From a virus, in IMG/VR virus record IMGVR_UViG_3300028920_000054, positions 26,362 through 90,361 of that record: DNA of 64,000 nt, one strand, 5' to 3'. Position numbers and translations under genes: made by a program. Positions within the stretch are counted from its first letter, which is position 1; each line of letters begins with the position of its first letter. Under the pieces are notes generated by a model. It saw only the letters and a program-made list of their open reading frames with translations, searched no databases and was not told the DNA's origin. This document shows, in pieces, positions 3,563 to 60,861 of the stretch.

Positions 3563-3968
3563 GGGCAATGTTTCGGGAAAGACTGAGGAAGAAAACAACC
3601 CAGACTATATCAATTCTGCGCTTAAGAATTTTGATTGCGAAGTTGACGTTTGGCATTACGATGGTTGGTATCTTGGACACGACAAGCCCGAACATGAAAT
3701 AGAAGAATCCTTTTTAAGGCAAGAAGGGTTGTGGTGTCACGCAAAAACAGAATGGACGCTATACTCCTTAATGGGTTTAGGGGTAAGGTGCTTTTTCCAC
3801 AACACCGATGCGGTTACGTTAACTTCAGATGGTTATTTGTGGACATATCCCGGCAGGACATTAACCCCAAGTTCAATATGCGTCTTGCCCGAAATGCGTG
3901 GTATAACCAAAACAATTATGAGACCATGTGCAGGGTTTTGTAGCGACAGAATAGGAGAATATGTTTGA
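3543..3968 (+). CDS. Glycerophosphodiester phosphodiesterase-like protein
   Basis: The 141-residue product starts at TTG and opens with ILISHRGN, the catalytic HRG of the GDPD TIM-barrel family. It is followed by [20 protein letters not shown] (metal-binding E/D and H), WCHAK and FFHNTDA, all recurrent in short GDPD-like proteins of phage and environmental genomes. It is about half the length of a normal GDPD, so it is a minimal or divergent barrel. Its context is glycan or lipid-headgroup tailoring. Confidence 0.65.
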
Positions 3969-4966
3969 AAGCACTTGTAAGTGGGGTCACAGGACAGGAT
4001 GGTTCGTATCTTACTGAAATTCTTTTAGATAAGGGATACGAAGTTCACGGAATTGTAAGAAGGTCAAGTTCACTAAACACCGCAAGAATAGACCATCTTT
4101 ACAAAGATCAGCACGAAGACACGAAACTTCACCTTCACTTTGGCGACTTGTCTGTGTCTGGTCAATTAATGGAGCTTGTTGGTGACATCAAGCCGGATGA
4201 AATTTATAATCTTGCAGCAATGTCTCACGTAAAAGTTAGCTTTGAAGTACCAGAATATACTGGAGATATAGTTGGACTTGGGACACTAAGGATGCTTGAG
4301 GCGATAAGAAGGGCACACCCGAAAGCAAGGATGTATCAAGCTTCGTCGTCAGAGTTATGGGGGTCTTCACCTCCACCACAGAACGAAGATACTCCGTTTA
4401 GTCCACAAAGCCCATACGCCATAGCAAAGCTATATGCTTACCATATGGTAAAGAATTATCGAGAAGCCTACGGAATCTTTGCAAGTAACGGAATATTGAC
4501 AAATCACGAATCGGCTCGTCGTGGGGAGACTTTCGTAACACGTAAGATTACACGTGCAGCAACAAGGATAAAGTTAGGACTGCAAGACAAATTATACCTT
4601 GGGAACCTTGAAGCTAAGCGTGATTGGAGCCACGCTAAAGATTTTTGTAGCGCAATGGTTCTTATACTCCAACACGAAAAACCAGACGACTTTGTTATAG
4701 CAAGTGGGGTAATGAGAACAGTAAGGGAGTTTTTGGAAGCAGTTTTTACACGATTAGATTTAGACTATAAGGACTATGTTGAAATCGACCAACGCTATTA
4801 CAGGCCAACAGAAGTAGACGCCCTGTGTGGTGATTCTTCAAAGGCAAGAAAGGTTCTAGGGTGGGAACCGAAGATTACATTTGACCAACTTGTTGATGAA
4901 ATGGTTGAATCGGATATGGAGCTTGCTAAGAAGGAATTGGTTTTAAAAGAGGCTGGTTTTGATTAA
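3965..4966 (+). CDS. gmd: GDP-mannose 4,6-dehydratase
   Basis: Converts GDP-D-mannose to GDP-4-keto-6-deoxy-D-mannose. It is a full-length SDR protein (333 aa) with the N-terminal NADP loop [43 protein letters not shown] and the catalytic Y151-x3-K155. [16 protein letters not shown] and RDWSHAKDF are also present, so every hallmark of Gmd is visible. The start is TTG in a TTGA overlap. Together with the fcl-like gene at 5408 it supplies GDP-L-fucose for the fucosyltransferase at 6328. It could also feed the DegT aminotransferase. Confidence 0.96.
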
Positions 4967-5411
4967 ACGATTTAAGGATGAAACCAAACTTGTTGCGAAG
5001 TGGACTGCTAAAATAAGGGGCGGATATTACTTCCACGTTTTTCTATGGCAAGACCAAGACAGTTTCGATGAAAACACCTATGACAAGGTTCCAAATTCTT
5101 GTCTTGGTTGTGTAGATTTTGTTCCATGGACTTTGTTTATAGACAAAGGCACTGAAATACGAGTGGTAAAACCAAAGTTAGGCGAAATACATTTTATAAA
5201 AGAAAAGTGGAATACCGAAATTGTTGCACACGAATTGTGTCACGCATTGATACATAGACTCAGGGTGGTAGAGCCAAGCGTGGAAAAGGTTATAGATCAA
5301 GAAGATGACGCAGAAGAAGATGTGTGCTATTGGTTTGGAAGATTATTTAACGATATTTATAGACTATTGTGGGAAGTAGACCCACCAAAGGGATTTGGAA
5401 AACAACAATGA
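4959..5411 (+). CDS. Small HEXXH zinc peptidase-like protein
   Basis: The 150-residue protein starts at TTG eight bases inside gmd. It carries [12 protein letters not shown] with HELCH at residues 91-95, the zinc/catalytic HEXXH motif of minimal metallopeptidases. A downstream acidic [11 protein letters not shown] may supply the third ligand. There is no signal peptide or membrane segment, so it probably acts in the cytoplasm. Its presence inside a nucleotide-sugar operon is unexpected. The substrate cannot be told. Confidence 0.6.
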
Positions 5412-6331
5412 GAATAGTCGTTACAGGTGGCAGTGGATTCTTAGGCAAATACGTTGTTGAACGGATTGGTGGAATTAGTGCGAATCATTCGGAATATGAT
5501 TTCGTAAGTGCTGAGGACGTAAAGCGGATGTATGATGAATTAAATCCAGATATTGTAATACATCTTGCCGCAAGAGTCGGTGGAATTGGCTTCAATATGG
5601 ACTACCCAGCAGTCCTTTTTTATGAAAACATAATGATGGGAACACAACTATTACACGAAGGATATGTTAGGGGGATAAAAAAGTTTATTAGCATTGGAAC
5701 CACCTGTTCTTATCCAAAGCATACCCCCATCCCGTTTAAGGAGTGCGATATATGGAATGGATATCCAGAAGAAACAAATGCCCCCTATGGTATGGCTAAA
5801 AAAATGCTCCTTGTCCAGTCCCAAGCATATAGAAAACAATATGGTTTTAATTCAATCTTTTTGATACCAACAAATATGTATGGATGCAGAGATAATTTTG
5901 ATTATAATTCATCACACGTTATACCATCACTAATAAGGAAATTCAAGGAACATGATGATGTTATAATATGGGGAGATGGGAGCGCAACTAGGGACTTTAT
6001 ATATGTTGAGGATGCTGTAGATGCAATTGTCCTTGCACTTGAAAAATATAATGGAATTGAACCCATAAACATCGGAACGGGAAAACAAACATCAATAAGT
6101 GAATTAGTAAAAATAATAACAAACATAACGTCATTTAGTGGCGATATACATTGGGACAAATCAAAACCAAATGGACAACCAGTTAGAATGCTAGACACAT
6201 CGGTAGCTAAGACAGAACTTGGATTTGAAGCTAAAACTCAAATTTACGAAGGATTAGAAAAAACAATAGCTTGGTACGAAGATGCTTATAAATGCCTAGC
6301 GCCCAAAGGAGGTACCACCAGCGTAAGTTGA
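5408..6331 (+). CDS. fcl: GDP-L-fucose synthase (3,5-epimerase/4-reductase)
   Basis: Converts GDP-4-keto-6-deoxymannose to GDP-L-fucose using NADPH. The ATG at 5408 overlaps the previous stop (ATGA) and begins [13 protein letters not shown]. Diagnostic features are HLAARVGGIGFN, SIGTTCSYPKH, the catalytic APYGMAKK (Y127/K131), PTNMYGCRDNFD, SSHVIPSLIRKF, and WGDGSATRDFIYVEDA. The length (307 aa) is typical. It pairs with gmd two genes upstream; the peptidase gene lies between them. Confidence 0.95.
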   Translation: MRIVVTGGSGFLGKYVVERIGGISANHSEYDFVSAEDVKRMYDELNPDIVIHLAARVGGIGFNMDYPAVLFYENIMMGTQLLHEGYVRGIKKFISIGTTCSYPKHTPIPFKECDIWNGYPEETNAPYGMAKKMLLVQSQAYRKQYGFNSIFLIPTNMYGCRDNFDYNSSHVIPSLIRKFKEHDDVIIWGDGSATRDFIYVEDAVDAIVLALEKYNGIEPINIGTGKQTSISELVKIITNITSFSGDIHWDKSKPNGQPVRMLDTSVAKTELGFEAKTQIYEGLEKTIAWYEDAYKCLAPKGGTTSVS

Positions 6332-7227
6332 AAACCATAAAGATTAATTTTTCCAATTGGTGGGGGTTCGGAATAGAAGAATGGAGGGCTATGTTCTCTT
6401 TTCTTGATTACAATTTTGTTCTTAGTCTTCATCCAGATTATGTTATATTTTCAAATACAGCAGAAAGAAGTATGCCAACCATCCATTGCGAAAGACGCGT
6501 TAAGAAAATATTCTTCATGGGTGAAATTATAGATGTTGACATGTCTAAATGCGATTGGGCGTTTGGAGATAATTACGTAAACAGCCCAAGGCACTTCAGG
6601 ATGCCATACTATGTTATAAGGATGTTGTATACAGGAACACCACTTGATTCGCTCATAAAAAATATAGACACAGAACAGGTAAAGTATGAAAAGACAAAAT
6701 TCTGTAATTTCCTTTTTTCAAATACAAGAGATGGTGAAACTAGGAATAGATTTTTTAAAGAACTGTCAAAATATAAGAAGGTAGATTCGGCAGGCACTTC
6801 GTTCAATAATATGGGGTTTGTTTTGGGTGGAAGACAGGGAACCAAGGTTGGCGGATATACGAAATATCCTGAAAAAATGAGATTTCTCAGAGATTATAAG
6901 TTCACAATAGCATTTGAAAACAACAGAAGCGATTATAACCCAAATTCAGGATATACGACGGAAAAACTTACAGAGCCAATGCTAGTAAATAGTATCCCAA
7001 TTTACAGGGGCAATCCAAGAATTGGTGAAGAATTTAACACAAACAGCTTTTTTAATTATTATGACTTTCGTTCAGAAAAAGAATTCATAGACTACATAAT
7101 TGAAGTTGATAAAAACGACTATCTGTATGAAGGGATGTTGGAAGAACCGTGGTTGCTTGGGAACAAATTGACAAAACAGCTAGATGTAAAAGCGATTAAG
7201 CGGCAGTTTGAGAAGATATTTAGATAG
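6328..7227 (+). CDS. GT10 family alpha-fucosyltransferase
   Basis: The 299-residue protein carries the GT10 hallmark YKFTIAFENN...YTTEKLTEPML...IPIYRGNP, the donor-binding motif of alpha-1,3/1,4-fucosyltransferases. The N-terminus KTIKINFSNWWGFG is also typical. I place the start at TTG 6328 (TTGA overlap with fcl), following the operon's habit and an AGGAGG at 6307-6312. An in-frame ATG at 6292 lies upstream of that site. It should transfer L-fucose from the GDP-fucose made by the two upstream enzymes to a glycan acceptor. Confidence 0.88.
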   Translation: MKTIKINFSNWWGFGIEEWRAMFSFLDYNFVLSLHPDYVIFSNTAERSMPTIHCERRVKKIFFMGEIIDVDMSKCDWAFGDNYVNSPRHFRMPYYVIRMLYTGTPLDSLIKNIDTEQVKYEKTKFCNFLFSNTRDGETRNRFFKELSKYKKVDSAGTSFNNMGFVLGGRQGTKVGGYTKYPEKMRFLRDYKFTIAFENNRSDYNPNSGYTTEKLTEPMLVNSIPIYRGNPRIGEEFNTNSFFNYYDFRSEKEFIDYIIEVDKNDYLYEGMLEEPWLLGNKLTKQLDVKAIKRQFEKIFR

Positions 7228-16253: not shown

Positions 16254-19200
16254 ATGCAGTGGGTTTTTAAAGTAGGATATAAAAAACTTGTTCCTGATTT
16301 GACAACAAGACTGAAATATTGGTCTGACTGTCAACTAGTGGACATACGCCCTTCAGGGTTTTATCCTACTAAAGCGGGAAAGCACTTCTGCATTATTGAA
16401 GACGGGAAAGATTACTGGAAAGTTAGAAGCACTACCGACTGGAAGTCCACGAAGAAAAGTGTTCTTGACCTGAAAAAATACCTTACAGTTGCAGATGCAA
16501 AGGGGAAGTATCCGTGGGATGCAGGATATAATGAAAACACGGTTCCGAAGAGAAAGCGGGACTGGTTTATTGATTACAAATCACTGTTAGATAAAAAGCA
16601 TATTACTGATTCGCAATTTGATGGAATTTACGATAAATCATGGGAGGAAATAATCGTTCTTGAGGGTGACATTACGCAATTGCTTACTCATGAAGATGCA
16701 AAAACACGCTTGCAATCTATATATTCTGATAAGACCGGAACCGTTGCACAAAACGGAGCTGGTGCAGGAACAGATGGGGCTTTTACTATAGGTGCGACCG
16801 GAGATTACGCAACCCTGACGTTGGCAGAAGCAGATATTGCGGCTCAACTCACTGGGGACTTAACCTTTGAACACCTTAATGAGCAAACCGCCATATCCTC
16901 ATTGGTACAGTTTGACCTTGATACAAATGGACACCTATTAAAAATAACAGCATCACCTGGGGCGGAACACAACGGTGGTGCGTACGGGAATGGAGCAAGA
17001 ATAGACAGGGGAACATATGATGATATCAGATGTCTTGAGACTGTCGAGGGGAGCTTTGATGATTTAGAATTTTCAAATCTAGCTTTTGATGTTTCTGGGG
17101 CTGGGAATGACGGGTTGTTCTTGTCGAATGGAGCTAAAGGGGGAACGTGGACTGTAAACCGTTGTTTGTTTAAGGGGGGGTCTAGTTCTGTTAGTCTACT
17201 AAGGGTTTATTACAATGCAAAAAACGTAATATTGAAAAACAATATTGTTTATGGAAACGATGGAACATATGGGGGAATTGTCCTAGAATCAATTTATGCT
17301 GGAAGCCATCAAGTGTATAACAATACTTGCGTTGGAAATCGTTTTGGAATCAAACAAGATTACGCTTCAGAATCAACAACAACGATGGTTTTTAAAAATA
17401 ATCTTTGTCAAGCCAATACGTCTGATTTCATTGATGATGGGGCTGGCTTTGGAACTACGGGTCACAATATTTCTGAGGACGATACAAGCCCTGACGCTTC
17501 ATACCAAGAAAAAGACCTGCATACAAATTCCATATTTTTAGATTACGATAACAACGATTATCGTCTTAATTCTGCCGGAGATGCTACAAATCTTGCCATA
17601 GTTGATGACGGTGAAGACCTGTCTGTAATATTCACAGATGACATTCAGGGGCAGACACGCTCAACTTGGTACATTGGGGCGAGCGAAATAGTCTCTAGCG
17701 AAGAAACAATAACCATAACACCTTCCATCGACGCCCTTGTTGCTAAAACATTTACCAAAACAGCCTCCCTTGACGCTCTTTTACAATCGGTCAGAACAGA
17801 CACACTTTCAATAGACTCGTTGCTTTATGCAACCAAAACGCAAGAAGTCTCGTTAGATTCGCTTTTGCAAGCAGTTAAAACAGGAGCGCTATCCATTGAT
17901 TCGTTAGTTTCCGTTGCTAGAACAATAACCGTTTCCCTTGACTCTTTATTGGCGGTGGTCGGAACCGATACAGTTTTAATAGATGCTCTTTTACAATCAG
18001 CAAAGACACAGAAAGTTTCCTTGGATGCGCTTTTACAGGCGGTTAAAAGTGGTTCGCTGTCGATTGATGCGTTACTGCAATTAACAAAGACTAAAACGAT
18101 TTCAATGGATACCCTGCTTAGTGCTGTTAAAACGGGTGAAACTTCCCTAGATTCTATGCTTGCAGTCGTTGGGACTAAGACTGTTTCAATAGACACGCTT
18201 ATTCAGGCAGTTAAGGAAGGTGTTCTGTCCATAGATACTTTGATTCAGGCAACAAAAACAACTTCGGCTTCGATAGACTCGTTATTGCAAGACAGCAAAA
18301 GCAATACGGTTTCTTTAGATTCAATGTTACGGGCAGTAAAAAGCGGAACCACTTCACTTGATTCTATTCTTGCTGTAATCGGAACAAAAACTATTTCACT
18401 TGATGCGCTGTTAAGCGCTACAAAAACAGGAACGCTTTCGATAGATTCATTGATACAAGCAGTTGGAACAAAGACGGTTTCAATGGATGCATTGTTGCAA
18501 GAAGTTAAGTCTGGAACATTGTCGTTAGATGTGTTCCTTGAGGCAACACAAACCAAGGAACTTTATTTAGACGCTCTTATAGAAGCAGTAAAGTCTGGTG
18601 TCGTTTCGTTAGATACCATTTTGTCTTCAGGCTTATCTAACACCATTTCGTTAGACGTTCTTTTACAAGCAGTAAAAACCAACACGATATCGCTAGACAC
18701 TTTAATGCTGTTGGCTAAAACGCAGACAGTCTCAATCGACACCATTCTGGCTGTCGCTAACAGCGTTGGAATATCGGTTGACGCACTTTTAGAGGCAAGC
18801 AAGGCGAACACCATTTCACTAGATTCGTTGTTACAGGCAGTAAAGAGTGGCGTGGTTTCCATAGACGCTATATTGGCAGGTGGAACAGGAATAATTCTTT
18901 CACTCGATGCTCTTTTACAAAGCACCAAAACCGGGGTTGTTTCAATAGATTCATTGGTTCAGGTTGCAAAGACAGATTCTACCATGCTTGATTCTATTAT
19001 ATCAATGACAATGGAATCGACTTCTGTGCTTGACGCTTTTATTCAAAAAGCACAGACATCTTATGTTTCGATAGACACGTTGTTGCAGTCTGTCAAAACA
19101 AAAATACTTTCGATTGATGCCCTGTTAAGTCTAGTAAAATCGGTTTCAGTTTCGATAGACAGTCTTTTGATGGCAACCAAAGATGAAGTTCTGTCCATTG

Positions 19201-19976
19201 ATGCCTTGATACAGGCTTCTTATGGCAAGACGCTTGATGTGGACGCACTGTTACAAGCAACCAAAGAAGGAACCACTTCTTTAGATGCGGTTATATTTTT
19301 GGTTGGTGGTCTTTCTGTTTCATTAGACGCACTATTGATGGCAGTAAAGAACGAAACCTTATCGTTGGATACGCTTATACAGATAACCCAAACAGAAACG
19401 GTTTCTATTGACGCTCTTTTAGGTGCAGAAAAGACCGGATTGATTTCGTTGGATTCGTTGCTTAAAATGGCAAAGACCAATTCGGTATCAATAGATTCGT
19501 TGTTGCAGTCTTCAAAAGAAGGTTTTGTTTCGATTGACACAATTATATCTCTTGTTTTTGTAAACAACATGTCTGTTTCTCTAGACAGTATGGTGGCATT
19601 GTTACAAACCAATCAGATTTCCATTGATGCCCTTATTCAAGCCGTTGGAACGGAAACTGTTTCGCTTGATACCTTATTGCAGGCAACAAACACAAGCACC
19701 GCCGTTATGGACGTTCTAATGTCTGCATCAAGAACAGGAACTGCGGTAATAGATTCGCTGATTCAAAAGGGATACACCGGATACGCCCTTATTGATGCGA
19801 TAATAGGCCACTTCCAAAGGGTTAGTCTTGATGTTTCGATAAAGCCTGCCGGATGGGTATTGCCATTCAGGTCGATGGCAGAAGCACCATGGAGAAATAG
19901 GGTAGTTTCATCAGAAGGAAGAAACATGTATGTATCCGCACCGGGTCGGACGAGAATAGTTTATAGTAATAATTAA
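16254..19976 (+). CDS. Giant repeat protein: beta-helix domain plus fifty 14-residue repeats
   Basis: This 1,240-residue protein has four parts. Residues 1-165 are globular and basic. Residues 175-475 look like a right-handed beta-helix (YATLTLAEADI, IDRGTYDDIRC, NNIVYGNDGTYGG, NNTCVGNRFGI). Residues 490-1185 consist of about 50 consecutive 14-residue units with consensus S-[IL]-D-x-L-[LI]-Q-A-V-K-T-x-T-[VL]. The aspartate at unit position 3 is kept in all of them, and all but one or two units are exactly 14 residues. A short C-terminal cap ends VYSNN. DNA copies of the unit differ widely at silent sites, so the array is old and under protein-level selection. Probably a long virion fibre or stalk. 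Confidence 0.85.
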   Translation: MQWVFKVGYKKLVPDLTTRLKYWSDCQLVDIRPSGFYPTKAGKHFCIIEDGKDYWKVRSTTDWKSTKKSVLDLKKYLTVADAKGKYPWDAGYNENTVPKRKRDWFIDYKSLLDKKHITDSQFDGIYDKSWEEIIVLEGDITQLLTHEDAKTRLQSIYSDKTGTVAQNGAGAGTDGAFTIGATGDYATLTLAEADIAAQLTGDLTFEHLNEQTAISSLVQFDLDTNGHLLKITASPGAEHNGGAYGNGARIDRGTYDDIRCLETVEGSFDDLEFSNLAFDVSGAGNDGLFLSNGAKGGTWTVNRCLFKGGSSSVSLLRVYYNAKNVILKNNIVYGNDGTYGGIVLESIYAGSHQVYNNTCVGNRFGIKQDYASESTTTMVFKNNLCQANTSDFIDDGAGFGTTGHNISEDDTSPDASYQEKDLHTNSIFLDYDNNDYRLNSAGDATNLAIVDDGEDLSVIFTDDIQGQTRSTWYIGASEIVSSEETITITPSIDALVAKTFTKTASLDALLQSVRTDTLSIDSLLYATKTQEVSLDSLLQAVKTGALSIDSLVSVARTITVSLDSLLAVVGTDTVLIDALLQSAKTQKVSLDALLQAVKSGSLSIDALLQLTKTKTISMDTLLSAVKTGETSLDSMLAVVGTKTVSIDTLIQAVKEGVLSIDTLIQATKTTSASIDSLLQDSKSNTVSLDSMLRAVKSGTTSLDSILAVIGTKTISLDALLSATKTGTLSIDSLIQAVGTKTVSMDALLQEVKSGTLSLDVFLEATQTKELYLDALIEAVKSGVVSLDTILSSGLSNTISLDVLLQAVKTNTISLDTLMLLAKTQTVSIDTILAVANSVGISVDALLEASKANTISLDSLLQAVKSGVVSIDAILAGGTGIILSLDALLQSTKTGVVSIDSLVQVAKTDSTMLDSIISMTMESTSVLDAFIQKAQTSYVSIDTLLQSVKTKILSIDALLSLVKSVSVSIDSLLMATKDEVLSIDALIQASYGKTLDVDALLQATKEGTTSLDAVIFLVGGLSVSLDALLMAVKNETLSLDTLIQITQTETVSIDALLGAEKTGLISLDSLLKMAKTNSVSIDSLLQSSKEGFVSIDTIISLVFVNNMSVSLDSMVALLQTNQISIDALIQAVGTETVSLDTLLQATNTSTAVMDVLMSASRTGTAVIDSLIQKGYTGYALIDAIIGHFQRVSLDVSIKPAGWVLPFRSMAEAPWRNRVVSSEGRNMYVSAPGRTRIVYSNN

Positions 19977-40660: not shown

Positions 40661-40800
40661 TATTTAAGAATATGAGCCTTAAGGAAAGAGCGGAAAAATT
40701 TGGAATAGCAACAGACTTCCCAACACCACGAAGACAGCGAAGGGAAGACCTTAAAATGGCTGTACGTGAAGAACGAAGAAGGCGCAAGTGGAATGGATAA
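40657..40800 (+). CDS. Small basic protein, 47 aa
   Basis: Starts at ATG 40657 overlapping the previous stop and ends in REERRRRKWNG. It is strongly basic and may bind nucleic acid. It overlaps the thg1-like start by 8 bp. Confidence 0.5.
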   Translation: MIFKNMSLKERAEKFGIATDFPTPRRQRREDLKMAVREERRRRKWNG

Positions 40801-41479
40801 TCTTGGCGACAGGATGAAGAAAAACTACGAAGATAGGTATAGGTTTTACCTTACACGTAGAGTGCCCGTTATAATTAGACCCGACGGACGAGCCTTCCAC
40901 ACCCTGACAAAGAACTGTGAAAAACCATTTGATAGACAGTTTTGCAATAGAATGGATTATGTCGCCATAAAGTTAATGGAAGGAATGCAGGGTGCAAAAT
41001 GTGCTTATGTGCAATCAGACGAAATTTCAATTCTTTTAACTGATTTTGACACCCTTACCACAGATGCGTGGTTCAATTATAACGTTCAGAAAATGGCTTC
41101 AGTTTCTGCTGGAATGGCATCGGCATTGTTTACACGAGTTATGGAAGACGATGACAATATTGCCACGTTTGATAGTCGAGTGTTCAATGTTCCTAAAGAA
41201 GAAGTTGCCAATTATTTTGTGTGGAGACAAAAGGATTGGATAAGAAATAGCGTATCCATGTTGGCATTATCGTATTATTCCCACAAAGAGCTTCACAAGA
41301 AAAACCAAAAAGATATGCATGAAATGCTTCACATTAAGGGTGTCAATTGGGCAGACATTAGACAAAGATATAAAAATGGTTGTTTTATATATCGTGAACT
41401 TGGCAGTATAGCATATAGATACGATGTTATCTTTACGGAAGAAAGAAACTGCATAGAAAGATGTTTGGGGGTAGAATAA
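40793..41479 (+). CDS. Thg1-like tRNA 3'-5' nucleotidyltransferase
   Basis: The 228-residue protein starts at ATG 40793. It has the Thg1 catalytic blocks IIRPDGRAFHTLTKN (metal Asp) and YVQSDEISILLTD (metal Asp/Glu), and SRVFNVP with RQKDWIRNSVSMLA downstream. Thg1-like proteins add nucleotides in the reverse 3'-5' direction, for G-1 addition or 5'-end repair of tRNAs. No tRNA gene is visible in the window, so host or distal phage tRNAs would be the substrates. Confidence 0.88.
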   Translation: MDNLGDRMKKNYEDRYRFYLTRRVPVIIRPDGRAFHTLTKNCEKPFDRQFCNRMDYVAIKLMEGMQGAKCAYVQSDEISILLTDFDTLTTDAWFNYNVQKMASVSAGMASALFTRVMEDDDNIATFDSRVFNVPKEEVANYFVWRQKDWIRNSVSMLALSYYSHKELHKKNQKDMHEMLHIKGVNWADIRQRYKNGCFIYRELGSIAYRYDVIFTEERNCIERCLGVE

Positions 41480-52071: not shown

Positions 52072-52485
52072 TTATTTACGCTTTTCAACTTCAATTACCG
52101 GAATGTCAAATGACGTATAATAATGAACAGACTTCCATCCAACCACAATATACTTTATAATATCTCTGTGCTTCTTATCCCACCTTAAAATCGCTCGAAC
52201 CGTAGCACCAGAAGAAACAAAATCGTCAACGATTGCCCCAACTGTCCTCCCATGAAAATATAGCCCCGCCACATCTGAATGCGTTCGTTCTTTGGCTTTC
52301 TTTATTGCAATATGGGTTAGCGGTTTCTTTGACAATGCCAACATAGCGGCGGCTATCGAACAACCACTATATCCCCTTGAAACAAGAGTGTTGACTTCAG
52401 GCGGAAGCTTTTTGAGATACGCTTTCGCTACGGTTCCAATGCTTTTTGATTTATATAGTGTTTCATTATATGATACGTGTTCCAC
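52072..52485 (-). CDS. Type I phosphoribosyltransferase-like protein
   Basis: The 137-residue protein contains VGAIVDDFVSSGATVRAIL, the PRPP-binding loop, and SRGYSGCSIAAAML, the pyrophosphate loop region. It is shorter than most PRTases. Phage copies sit near nucleotide or amidoligase genes; here a class-II amidotransferase lies about 6 kb away. It could act in nucleobase salvage or a novel PRPP-dependent reaction. It has its own promoter. Confidence 0.78.
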   Translation of the reverse strand: MEHVSYNETLYKSKSIGTVAKAYLKKLPPEVNTLVSRGYSGCSIAAAMLALSKKPLTHIAIKKAKERTHSDVAGLYFHGRTVGAIVDDFVSSGATVRAILRWDKKHRDIIKYIVVGWKSVHYYTSFDIPVIEVEKRK

Positions 52486-58735: not shown

Positions 58736-58765
58736 GGAAAATAATTACCTTGTGGTTAGAAGGGA
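58736..58765 (-). repeat. Intergenic motif, copy 9
   Basis: Minus strand CCCTTCTAACCACAAGGTAA; the TAA of TTCTAA is the stop codon of the amidotransferase gene. Confidence 0.7.
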
Positions 58766-59565
58766 ATCTCTGTTAGCAAATTGCCCTTCCATTGTTTACA
58801 CTCATCTTTAAAATACCTATCATAACATTCCGTACATATACCGTCTTTCATACCTTCTTTATGCACTATAACACCGCAAACATTGCATTCTATATACTCT
58901 TCCGGATCGTCAATCAATGTATCATAATATGGCTCGTTATAGCTGTAATAGTCTTTTTTATTGCCCTTCGAAAATCCCTCCCAAAAGTTTCTGCGCTCTA
59001 TTTTATAGGTTGAATTTGAAAACAATATAGCCCCATCTTTTACCCAGTTACCAAAAGTTATTACGTCTCCGTCTCCGTTCAAAATTACAACCCTGTTACC
59101 TTCAAGGGCCATGTCTAACAAGTTTAAAACCCTAATACTACAAAGTTCATCAAAAGAAAACCGTGACAATGTATCTCTAATAAACTCCATTGTATCAGAA
59201 ATAAACTTGTCTCCAAGTCCCTGAAAAATACCGTTATGCGCTAGCCCGGTATCGCATGATATTTCTAAACTTTGTAAATCAGTTACAGAATTTGACAAAG
59301 GAAAGGGATGAGAATTGCCCGGCTTTATTATGCCACTTGTGGCGATTCTAAAGTGGTACACAATGGGAGTATTTTTTATGTCTTTGACATTCTCGTTAAT
59401 TGATTTTCTCAAAGCCCTAACACCTGAAAATCCTTTTCTGATATGTACCTGGTTATTTTCTGCATACATATAACCACAATAATCTGGATTATTGGCGAAA
59501 CAGTTCTTTAATATGGTTTTTGACGGTTGTTCAATCCCTATCGGTTTATAAGCAATTATACACAT
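58756..59565 (-). CDS. Class-II glutamine amidotransferase-like protein
   Basis: The 269-residue Ntn-hydrolase protein begins Met-Cys2-Ile-Ile-Ala, so Cys2 becomes the nucleophile after Met removal. HFRIATSGIIKPGNSHPF and GLAHNGIF are the glutamine-binding and oxyanion regions of class-II amidotransferases. A C-terminal zinc knuckle CNVCG...CTEC is added. It probably releases ammonia from glutamine for the ligase encoded immediately upstream (1-bp gap), forming a two-protein amidation system. Confidence 0.85.
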   Translation of the reverse strand: MCIIAYKPIGIEQPSKTILKNCFANNPDYCGYMYAENNQVHIRKGFSGVRALRKSINENVKDIKNTPIVYHFRIATSGIIKPGNSHPFPLSNSVTDLQSLEISCDTGLAHNGIFQGLGDKFISDTMEFIRDTLSRFSFDELCSIRVLNLLDMALEGNRVVILNGDGDVITFGNWVKDGAILFSNSTYKIERRNFWEGFSKGNKKDYYSYNEPYYDTLIDDPEEYIECNVCGVIVHKEGMKDGICTECYDRYFKDECKQWKGNLLTEIPF

Positions 59566-59566
59566 A

Positions 59567-60832
59567 TTATAAATTCCTCTCTTTCATATATGTTTTAAGT
59601 TCTTTATTTCCTTTGATGCAATAATCTTTTAAGTCATTCCAAGAAACCCTGGAGCACTCACTAACGGAATGAGATACACAATACCGTACTATGCTATCAG
59701 TTAGCTGAAAAGTAGCTATTAGGGTATTATACTTTAAAGTGCCTTTCCACAGTCTAAATTCTGTAGTTTCATAACCGGAGATATTAACAGCATAATATCG
59801 GCCCGCTTGTTTCTCATAATTCAATCCGTTAATGGTTTTAACATTATTGTTTTTTTGACAATACCCTATATTGTCACGCCGTGAAAAGTTGTAAAGTTCA
59901 GTCCAAAATCGTTCAAAGATTTTCAAAATTTTGAGTTGTGAGATGCAAATTCCGGTTTGAGATTTACCTAAAAAAGAGTTATTGACGTGAATATGTAATC
60001 CACAAGTTGAAACATTGTGTGAAAGGCACCCGTCATTGACAAGTTGCTTTAAAAGTGCCTCCCATTGATACTCTTTTTTGTGATATTCAAGGGTGAAGGG
60101 TTGAGTTACAATCTCAAAGCCATTATTGAGCGATCCATCATCTTTAAATTCAGTTGAATCGTGAACTATGCCAATGGAGTTTTCAGCAGTTTCTCCCCGA
60201 TCGTTATTTCGGCACTCAACTTCCAACTCAACGCCCAGAAACAAAAGTTTGTCGGAATTGCAATGCCTATAAACAGGAGTATCGCCTCGCATTGATGCGA
60301 AAATATGCGCTAATGTCCTATCATAGCGGCCAATTGAACCTTGATTTTCAGGATAGCAATTTTCACAATAATAACAATCGTCATATTCACAATACATTAT
60401 ATAGTCATTGTTTATTGCCTCCCCGCATTGCTCGCAGTATGTAAAGTTCTCGCAAAAGCATTCCTCGCAATAACGTGAATCATAAACTGTTGTCATATAA
60501 TCACAATGATATATTTCATTGCAATCCTCACACATAAAATAGTTTCTATTATAGCAATCCTCGCAGATTATATCGCCTCCCTCGGTTGTATATGTTTCAT
60601 CGGTTGACACTCGTTCCCCACAGTCAGAGCATTCGACAAGGTTTTCATCGATGCAGTCTTGACATAAGGATCGACCATCAATTACTTGTAATTCATTTTC
60701 AAGGTAATAGTCTCCGCACTCCTCACAACTATTATATTGAGTTAATAGGCAATTTAGACATACTGTTCCATCATTAGTTTCATACCCTTTCATTCCTTCT
60801 AAAAACTCCTGGTTACAGTTTATGCACTTCAT
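59567..60832 (-). CDS. Amidoligase with N-terminal zinc-ribbon array
   Basis: In this 421-residue protein residues 1-165 contain about six CxxC pairs in register (CINCNQEF, CEECGDYY, CSDCGERV, CEDCNEIY, CEQCGEA, CENCYPE), a LIM-like ribbon chain. Residues 200-395 are an amidoligase (PF12224-like, glutamine synthetase/GCS fold): LGVELEVE, DGSLNNGFEIVTQPF, STCGLHIHV and TTEFRLWKGTL, with metal/ATP acidic residues intact. Such enzymes form amide bonds on peptides or proteins. The zinc array probably recruits the substrate. Confidence 0.85.
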   Translation of the reverse strand: MKCINCNQEFLEGMKGYETNDGTVCLNCLLTQYNSCEECGDYYLENELQVIDGRSLCQDCIDENLVECSDCGERVSTDETYTTEGGDIICEDCYNRNYFMCEDCNEIYHCDYMTTVYDSRYCEECFCENFTYCEQCGEAINNDYIMYCEYDDCYYCENCYPENQGSIGRYDRTLAHIFASMRGDTPVYRHCNSDKLLFLGVELEVECRNNDRGETAENSIGIVHDSTEFKDDGSLNNGFEIVTQPFTLEYHKKEYQWEALLKQLVNDGCLSHNVSTCGLHIHVNNSFLGKSQTGICISQLKILKIFERFWTELYNFSRRDNIGYCQKNNNVKTINGLNYEKQAGRYYAVNISGYETTEFRLWKGTLKYNTLIATFQLTDSIVRYCVSHSVSECSRVSWNDLKDYCIKGNKELKTYMKERNL

Positions 60833-60861
60833 TGTACGCCTCCTTGAAAATAATTTTTTGA

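Follow-up and report, generated by a model that had tools for sequence, protein, structure and literature searches.

Two adjacent genes of a phage genome raise the question of whether their products act as one enzyme and, if so, on which substrate. They encode an Amidoligase_2 protein and a class-II glutamine amidotransferase, and both genes and products are named AL and GAT throughout. The stretch of DNA analyzed (the window, 64,000 nt) corresponds to positions 26362-90361 of a phage contig 90,361 bases long. An earlier note on this DNA had described a class-II amidotransferase with an intact Cys2 located 1 bp from an amidoligase, and both open reading frames were found as described. AL, assigned to the GS/GCS-fold carboxylate-amine ligases (Amidoligase_2, PF12224), occupies 59567-60832 on the minus strand (421 aa). 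GAT follows at 58756-59565 on the same strand (269 aa), with the N-terminus Met-Cys and Cys2 as nucleophile. Both are embedded in a series of small genes. One base separates the AL stop codon TAA (59567-59569) from the GAT ATG (59565). AL is preceded by a strong Shine-Dalgarno sequence, AGGAGG (60839-60844, minus strand), and a similar element, GAGAGG, lies at 59576-59581 on the minus strand. This GAT ribosome site lies within the 3' end of AL, so that translation of the two genes is likely coupled.

Elsewhere in the window, the plus strand encodes a GDP-fucose/fucosylation set at 3965-7227, consisting of a GDP-mannose 4,6-dehydratase, a fucose-synthase-like epimerase, and a GT10 fucosyltransferase. 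A 1240-aa protein with a long run of short SLDSLLQAVKTG-type repeats is encoded at 16254-19976 (plus strand). A Thg1-like tRNAHis guanylyltransferase (Pfam, 91 bits) lies at 40766-41479 (plus strand), and no tRNA genes were found in the 64,000-nt window.

AL scores 34.0 bits against Pfam Amidoligase_2 (curated cut-off 22) and is a member of that family. Its catalytic domain (residues 196-421; 59570-60247, minus strand) contains GVELE200-204, D232, E240, HIH280-282, R319, R345, and EFR358-360. The motif set described by Iyer et al. in 2008 (PMC2588565) comprises GhExE, two acidic strands, [HD]x[NH], two arginines, and Ex[RK]x2D, and AL matches all of it except one Asp, the last of Ex[RK]x2D. 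GVELE at 200-204 corresponds to the GhExE of core strand 1 in GS-fold ligases, while D232/E240 and H280xH282 provide the acidic and histidine motifs of carboxylate-amine/ammonia ligases. The two active-site arginines, before or on strand 5, were assigned from motif order, without structural superposition, to R319 (68/68 AL sequences) and R345 (59/68). On strand 6, ExR is present in all 68 ALs and the final Asp is replaced by Lys or Arg in AL; PafA likewise deviates from this motif (PMC2588565). Among 161 AL sequences, E202, E204, D232, E240, G278, H280, E358, and R360 are kept in 158-159, and position 282 is His or Asn. The AL model (mean pLDDT 87.8, pTM 0.65) matched YbdK (2e-5) and glutamine synthetase (3e-5) in Foldseek searches of the PDB, followed by Dop and PafA. 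TM-scores for the AL and GAT models were a modest 0.3-0.5, which indicates the fold class and not close kinship. The AL profile gave no direct sequence link to solved structures, and only the HxH region aligned with E. coli YbdK.

GAT alone stayed under the Pfam cut-offs, with 13 bits to GATase_4. A profile built from eight GAT relatives reached structures of the GlmS glutaminase (1xff) and PurF with E-values down to 1e-10. Its predicted Ntn-hydrolase domain (residues 1-190; 58996-59565, minus strand) contains C2, H71/R73/T76, HPF86-88, HNG110-112, and D124. Judged by sequence, these residues correspond to the class-II signature of an N-terminal Cys, HxR..T, HPF, HNG, and a substrate-binding Asp. 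C2 is present in 137/137 aligned sequences; H71, R73, H110, N111, and G112 in 143/143; and D124 in 134/143. The GAT model (mean pLDDT 85.5) matched GFAT-1/GlmS at 4e-7 and then EgtC at 1e-4. Sequence reading and CxxC counts in relatives further place a zinc ribbon at the C-terminus (C227, C230, C244, C247; 58825-58887, minus strand).

The earlier note had made its proposal depend on two observations, namely that the ATP/metal residues survive alignment and that the two genes co-occur in relatives. Neither check overturned the proposal. Catalytic residues of AL (except the one Asp) and GAT are retained in approximately 140-160 relatives. For co-occurrence, profile-guided IMG/VR scans yielded 394 AL and 231 GAT relatives, and 80 loci per set were examined; the AL- and GAT-anchored sets were chosen independently, and some contigs are near-identical. 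A GAT lies within 1 kb in 72/80 AL-anchored loci, 70 in the order AL>GAT and 2 reversed. Of the remaining eight, closer inspection revealed a divergent GAT in two, and a third is truncated by the contig edge, which corrects the linkage to 74/79 testable ALs. In the GAT-anchored loci, AL is present in 78/80, in 59 of them at most 1 kb away. The genes are adjacent in the Methylophilales phages MEP401/402, the Caudoviricetes phage MW202733, and mycobacteriophage Marvin (gp105/106), and 1.1 kb apart in a Christensenellales phage; the unannotated fecal contigs MT839723 and MT835576 hold both. The AL of a C. difficile phage has neither zinc modules nor an adjoining GAT. A candidate AL-GAT fusion in locus L173 was rejected as likely read-through or misassembly, since its single open reading frame retains an internal Met-Cys and the Cys of GAT would have to be free at the N-terminus.

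That some ALs occur without GAT would fit independent neighbors lacking any joint function, but this explanation is barely credible. Linkage exceeds 90% by independent anchoring, across very different phage lineages and bacterial cassettes, and AL and GAT divergence is correlated. The distance matrices of 130 thinned pairs gave r=0.354, against a mean of 0.0 (SD 0.024, maximum 0.083) in 2000 shuffles, a test of shared history and not of contact in which relatedness is only partly removed. Chance neighborhood is excluded, because the pair recurs at hundreds of loci and its catalytic residues stay invariant. From their intact active sites and strong co-occurrence, AL and GAT probably form a functional unit, as the earlier note had assumed. 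No third gene recurs in the phage loci besides generic terminase, integrase, and resolvase genes, no relatives of the window neighbor genes were found in any AL/GAT locus, and the pair gave no PADLOC hit to known defense families. The suggested co-conservation with the phosphoribosyltransferase at 52072 was not borne out (0/41 related records); as that search had no positive control, this count is only moderate evidence of absence.

At the AL N-terminus, CxxC-pair counts, the model, and Foldseek together delimit five tandem treble-clef/LIM-like modules at residues 3-156 (60365-60826, minus strand). The earlier note had placed about six ribbons on AL. The zinc array itself stands, but the count of six on AL was rejected, since five CxxC...CxxC modules are carried by AL and the sixth sits on the GAT C-terminus. 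Phage relatives of AL carry 0-7 modules (none in 41/157), and genomic bacterial ALs carry three in 80/82. The modeled array matched the LIM tandem domains of LMO2 and PINCH at approximately 1e-2. Its Pfam LIM score of 18.3 bits lies below the cut-off of 22.9, and the finger spacers are about 7 residues against the 2-residue spacer of LIM. The predicted array is thus LIM-like through its fold only. Separately, by-eye inspection revealed AL C-terminal extensions resembling SH3-type DUF4314 repeats in loci L019, L027, L031, and L020-L022, and locus L187 has a DUF4314 domain encoded in the interval from AL to GAT.

Docking of the ribbons onto either a nucleic acid or a host protein had been proposed. 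Because the array resembles LIM, a protein-docking fold, a protein partner is favored, and the nucleic-acid half of the proposal is disfavored. Zinc ribbons and treble clefs can bind nucleic acids, and the phage has RNA-modifying genes (Thg1-like, SpoU), so that AL could modify DNA, tRNA, or a nucleic-acid-bound protein. We consider this improbable, given the LIM structural neighbors, the richness of the modules in Asp and Glu, and the phosphoribosyltransferase that is not co-conserved. The likeliest role of the modeled LIM-like, Asp/Glu-rich array of variable number is that of the docking part.

As a unit of exactly two genes, one for a GS-type ligase and one for an enzyme of the glutaminase fold, the pair is most simply read as a glutamine-dependent amide ligase, with a logic like that of MurT/GatD. 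The lack of any constant third partner fits an enzyme of two subunits well and a writer/eraser pair alone poorly. We therefore propose, tentatively and at somewhat less than even odds, that AL and GAT each contribute one subunit to a single phage-made enzyme of this kind. Judging from the intact residues, GAT Cys2 would split glutamine into glutamate and ammonia. AL would phosphorylate a carboxylate with ATP/Mg, as GS/GCS-superfamily ligases do, and attack by the ammonia would yield the amide. Docking, either of the substrate or of a partner protein from the host, may meanwhile fall to the five LIM-like AL modules and the GAT ribbon. As target, a cytosolic molecule of the host is most likely, whether a peptide, a protein, or a peptidoglycan precursor. 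Since the GS superfamily mostly uses glutamate gamma-carboxylates, the best candidate for the carboxylate is a Glu in such a molecule. Peptide amidation in particular, as put forward in the earlier note, is still something we infer.

Several observations count against an amide ligase. Many GS-fold relatives join amines other than ammonia, some clostridial phage ALs, free of zinc modules, have no GAT, and the GAT fold also matches EgtC, with a gamma-glutamyl cyclotransferase (GGCT) beside or fused to some pairs. The last two features make an EgtA/EgtC-type system a serious rival. Here, AL would couple an amine to the gamma-carboxylate of Glu or of a peptide ending in Glu, and GAT would remove or edit the glutamyl group. 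The AL superfamily usually activates the glutamate gamma-carboxylate (PMC2588565), and the conserved R73 and D124 of GAT are consistent with binding of a glutamyl group whose amino-acid end is free. GGCT, which also cleaves gamma-glutamyl bonds, accompanies AL/GAT in a minority of loci, once fused naturally to GAT in a protein with a zinc ribbon at its C-terminus (L047:7358-8710), next to which lie an AL bearing a zinc array and another ligase-like gene. On the other hand, the usual unit has two genes only and lacks other pathway enzymes, which implies a futile cycle unless a further step exists, and GAT ranks nearer to GFAT/GlmS than to EgtC. This alternative is possible but doubtful. GGCT was also considered as a GAT substitute in AL-only loci and rejected on inspection, as both GGCT-bearing AL-only loci also hold a divergent GAT. 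A search of the 90-kb window record found no GGCT.

Compatible with either mechanism is the idea that the pair acts on peptidoglycan precursors and that the altered wall blocks rival phages (superinfection exclusion). Such a proposal has been published for AL/GAT/ATP-grasp/GGCT cassettes (PMC5498523, PMC10580990, PMC11318856), and MurT/GatD, a glutamine-dependent lipid II amidase, bears a zinc ribbon on its ligase subunit (PMC6113224). However, the GGCT of the phiEco32/LUZ24 cassette was not found in the window record, so long a LIM-like array points to docking on a macromolecule, and the literature search found no wall results for any such pair. A wall target is accordingly conceivable, though rather unlikely.

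Bacterial loci extend the distribution of the pair beyond phages. A genome scan returned 458 relatives, of which the best 80 come almost exclusively from Clostridia, with several per genome; the AL + GAT pair is present in 78 of these 80, with gaps of mostly a few bp and often within mobile cassettes. Neighbors of the genomic pairs include DUF960, DUF6809, DUF4314, DUF1643, excisionase-type HTH proteins, and serine recombinases. In the Clostridia loci (L170-L249), a small serine recombinase is often encoded directly after GAT, approximately 2.1-2.3 kb from the AL start. One genome of Butyricicoccus pullicaecorum holds a 2.5-kb unit (DUF960-AL-GAT-tiny ORF) four times, with 86-88% identical DNA (L182:2786-5318, L199:7647-10183, L212:24-2534, and L217:24-2520). 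These units have sharp ends, unrelated flanks, and a terminator-like hairpin at the left end. AL omega is 0.02-0.06 in Butyricicoccus and approximately 0.02-0.08 across multi-copy Clostridia cassettes, pointing to strong purifying selection. The repeated Butyricicoccus copies, their unrelated flanks, and the low AL omega together define a mobile cassette maintained by selection.

Tiny peptides with good ribosome sites directly follow GAT in loci L171, L174, L175, L187, L192, L198, L203, L207, L213, L221, L244, and L248. One form (P1) is hydrophobic, 31-37 aa long, and frequently ends in Glu (MKEFFAGMAFTLILEGVAAVVIAAEKIKEAIEE); another (P2) has about 26 aa and a C-terminal KRK or similar. The Butyricicoccus units (L182, L199, L212, L217) encode MGLGTILVVIGEIIDLLEDEDE. 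Such peptides are enriched after GAT relative to control genes in genomes (14/71 versus 6/490) and in phages (12/139 versus 13/930), both comparisons being uncorrected for kinship. Ruminococcus and Butyricicoccus cassettes have one or two post-GAT peptides, the second, Lys/Arg-ended, in Ruminococcus. There is a slim chance that AL/GAT performs peptide conjugation or amidation for mobile elements, in which the Ruminococcus/Butyricicoccus peptides would be joined or amidated, the array would pick the target, and window-type phages would use another substrate. Such a system, if real, would resemble Pup or RiPP systems yet belong to no known kind. Small post-GAT peptides are confined to some relatives, and no open reading frame for a Pup-like small protein with a C-terminal Glu was found within 350 nt downstream of the window GAT.

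Parts of this picture have precedents. Ligases of the AL kind beside a GATase-like thiol peptidase or GGCT were named in 2008 (PMC2588565), and AL/GAT pairs were predicted in Iyer 2009, according to citing papers. Phage AL/GAT or AL/GGCT has since been described, with the cell-wall/superinfection idea repeated (PMC5498523, PMC10580990, PMC11318856), and PMC10580990 and PMC5498523 already present phage AL/GAT pairs, Marvin being included as cited there. The novelty that the earlier note claimed for phage versions with a long zinc array was thus overstated, since pairs are published and relatives commonly carry arrays of 0-7 modules. The pairing was known before; the zinc docking array and its spread are much less so. 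A search covering few subscription journals found no paper on the AL zinc array, and the literature search found no experiment on phage AL/GAT or AL/GGCT. The idea has been a prediction since 2008-2009, and it concerns a two-gene unit that hundreds of phages and mobile elements of gut bacteria carry under strong selection. With its minimal set of two genes, its modular docking array (0-7 modules), and its multi-copy cassettes, the unit is experimentally tractable and offers a route to the target. Should AL/GAT prove to place an amide on a wall precursor or a protein of the host, this would account for a common class of phage accessory genes.

Among known systems, the closest counterparts are the OM43 phages MEP401/402 and Marvin (gp105/gp106), which carry the same two genes in the order AL>GAT with intact active sites, at approximately 20-30% identity to the window pair. 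Marvin also shares the AL zinc ribbons and the GAT C-terminal ribbon, whereas the MEP ALs lack the full array, compared with five modules in the window AL. The podovirus "peptidoglycan modification cassette" (phiEco32, LUZ24, PSA-HP1; Iyer, Hardies) has the same AL + GATase core but adds an ATP-grasp protein, a second AL, and the GGCT that was not found in the window record. YbdK, GS, and PafA/Dop, of the GS/GCS carboxylate-amine ligase superfamily, share the AL fold class and all main catalytic motifs; the window AL differs in its zinc array, its dedicated GAT partner, and the missing final Asp of Ex[RK]x2D. EgtA/EgtC of ergothioneine biosynthesis likewise pairs a GCS-type ligase with a class-II GATase-fold enzyme, but EgtC hydrolyzes a gamma-glutamyl bond and supplies no ammonia, and that system has further pathway enzymes. 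The lipid II amidotransferase MurT/GatD resembles the proposed AL/GAT enzyme in being a two-gene, glutamine-dependent amide ligase with a zinc ribbon on the ligase (PMC6113224), although it uses other ligase (Mur) and glutaminase folds and a single ribbon.
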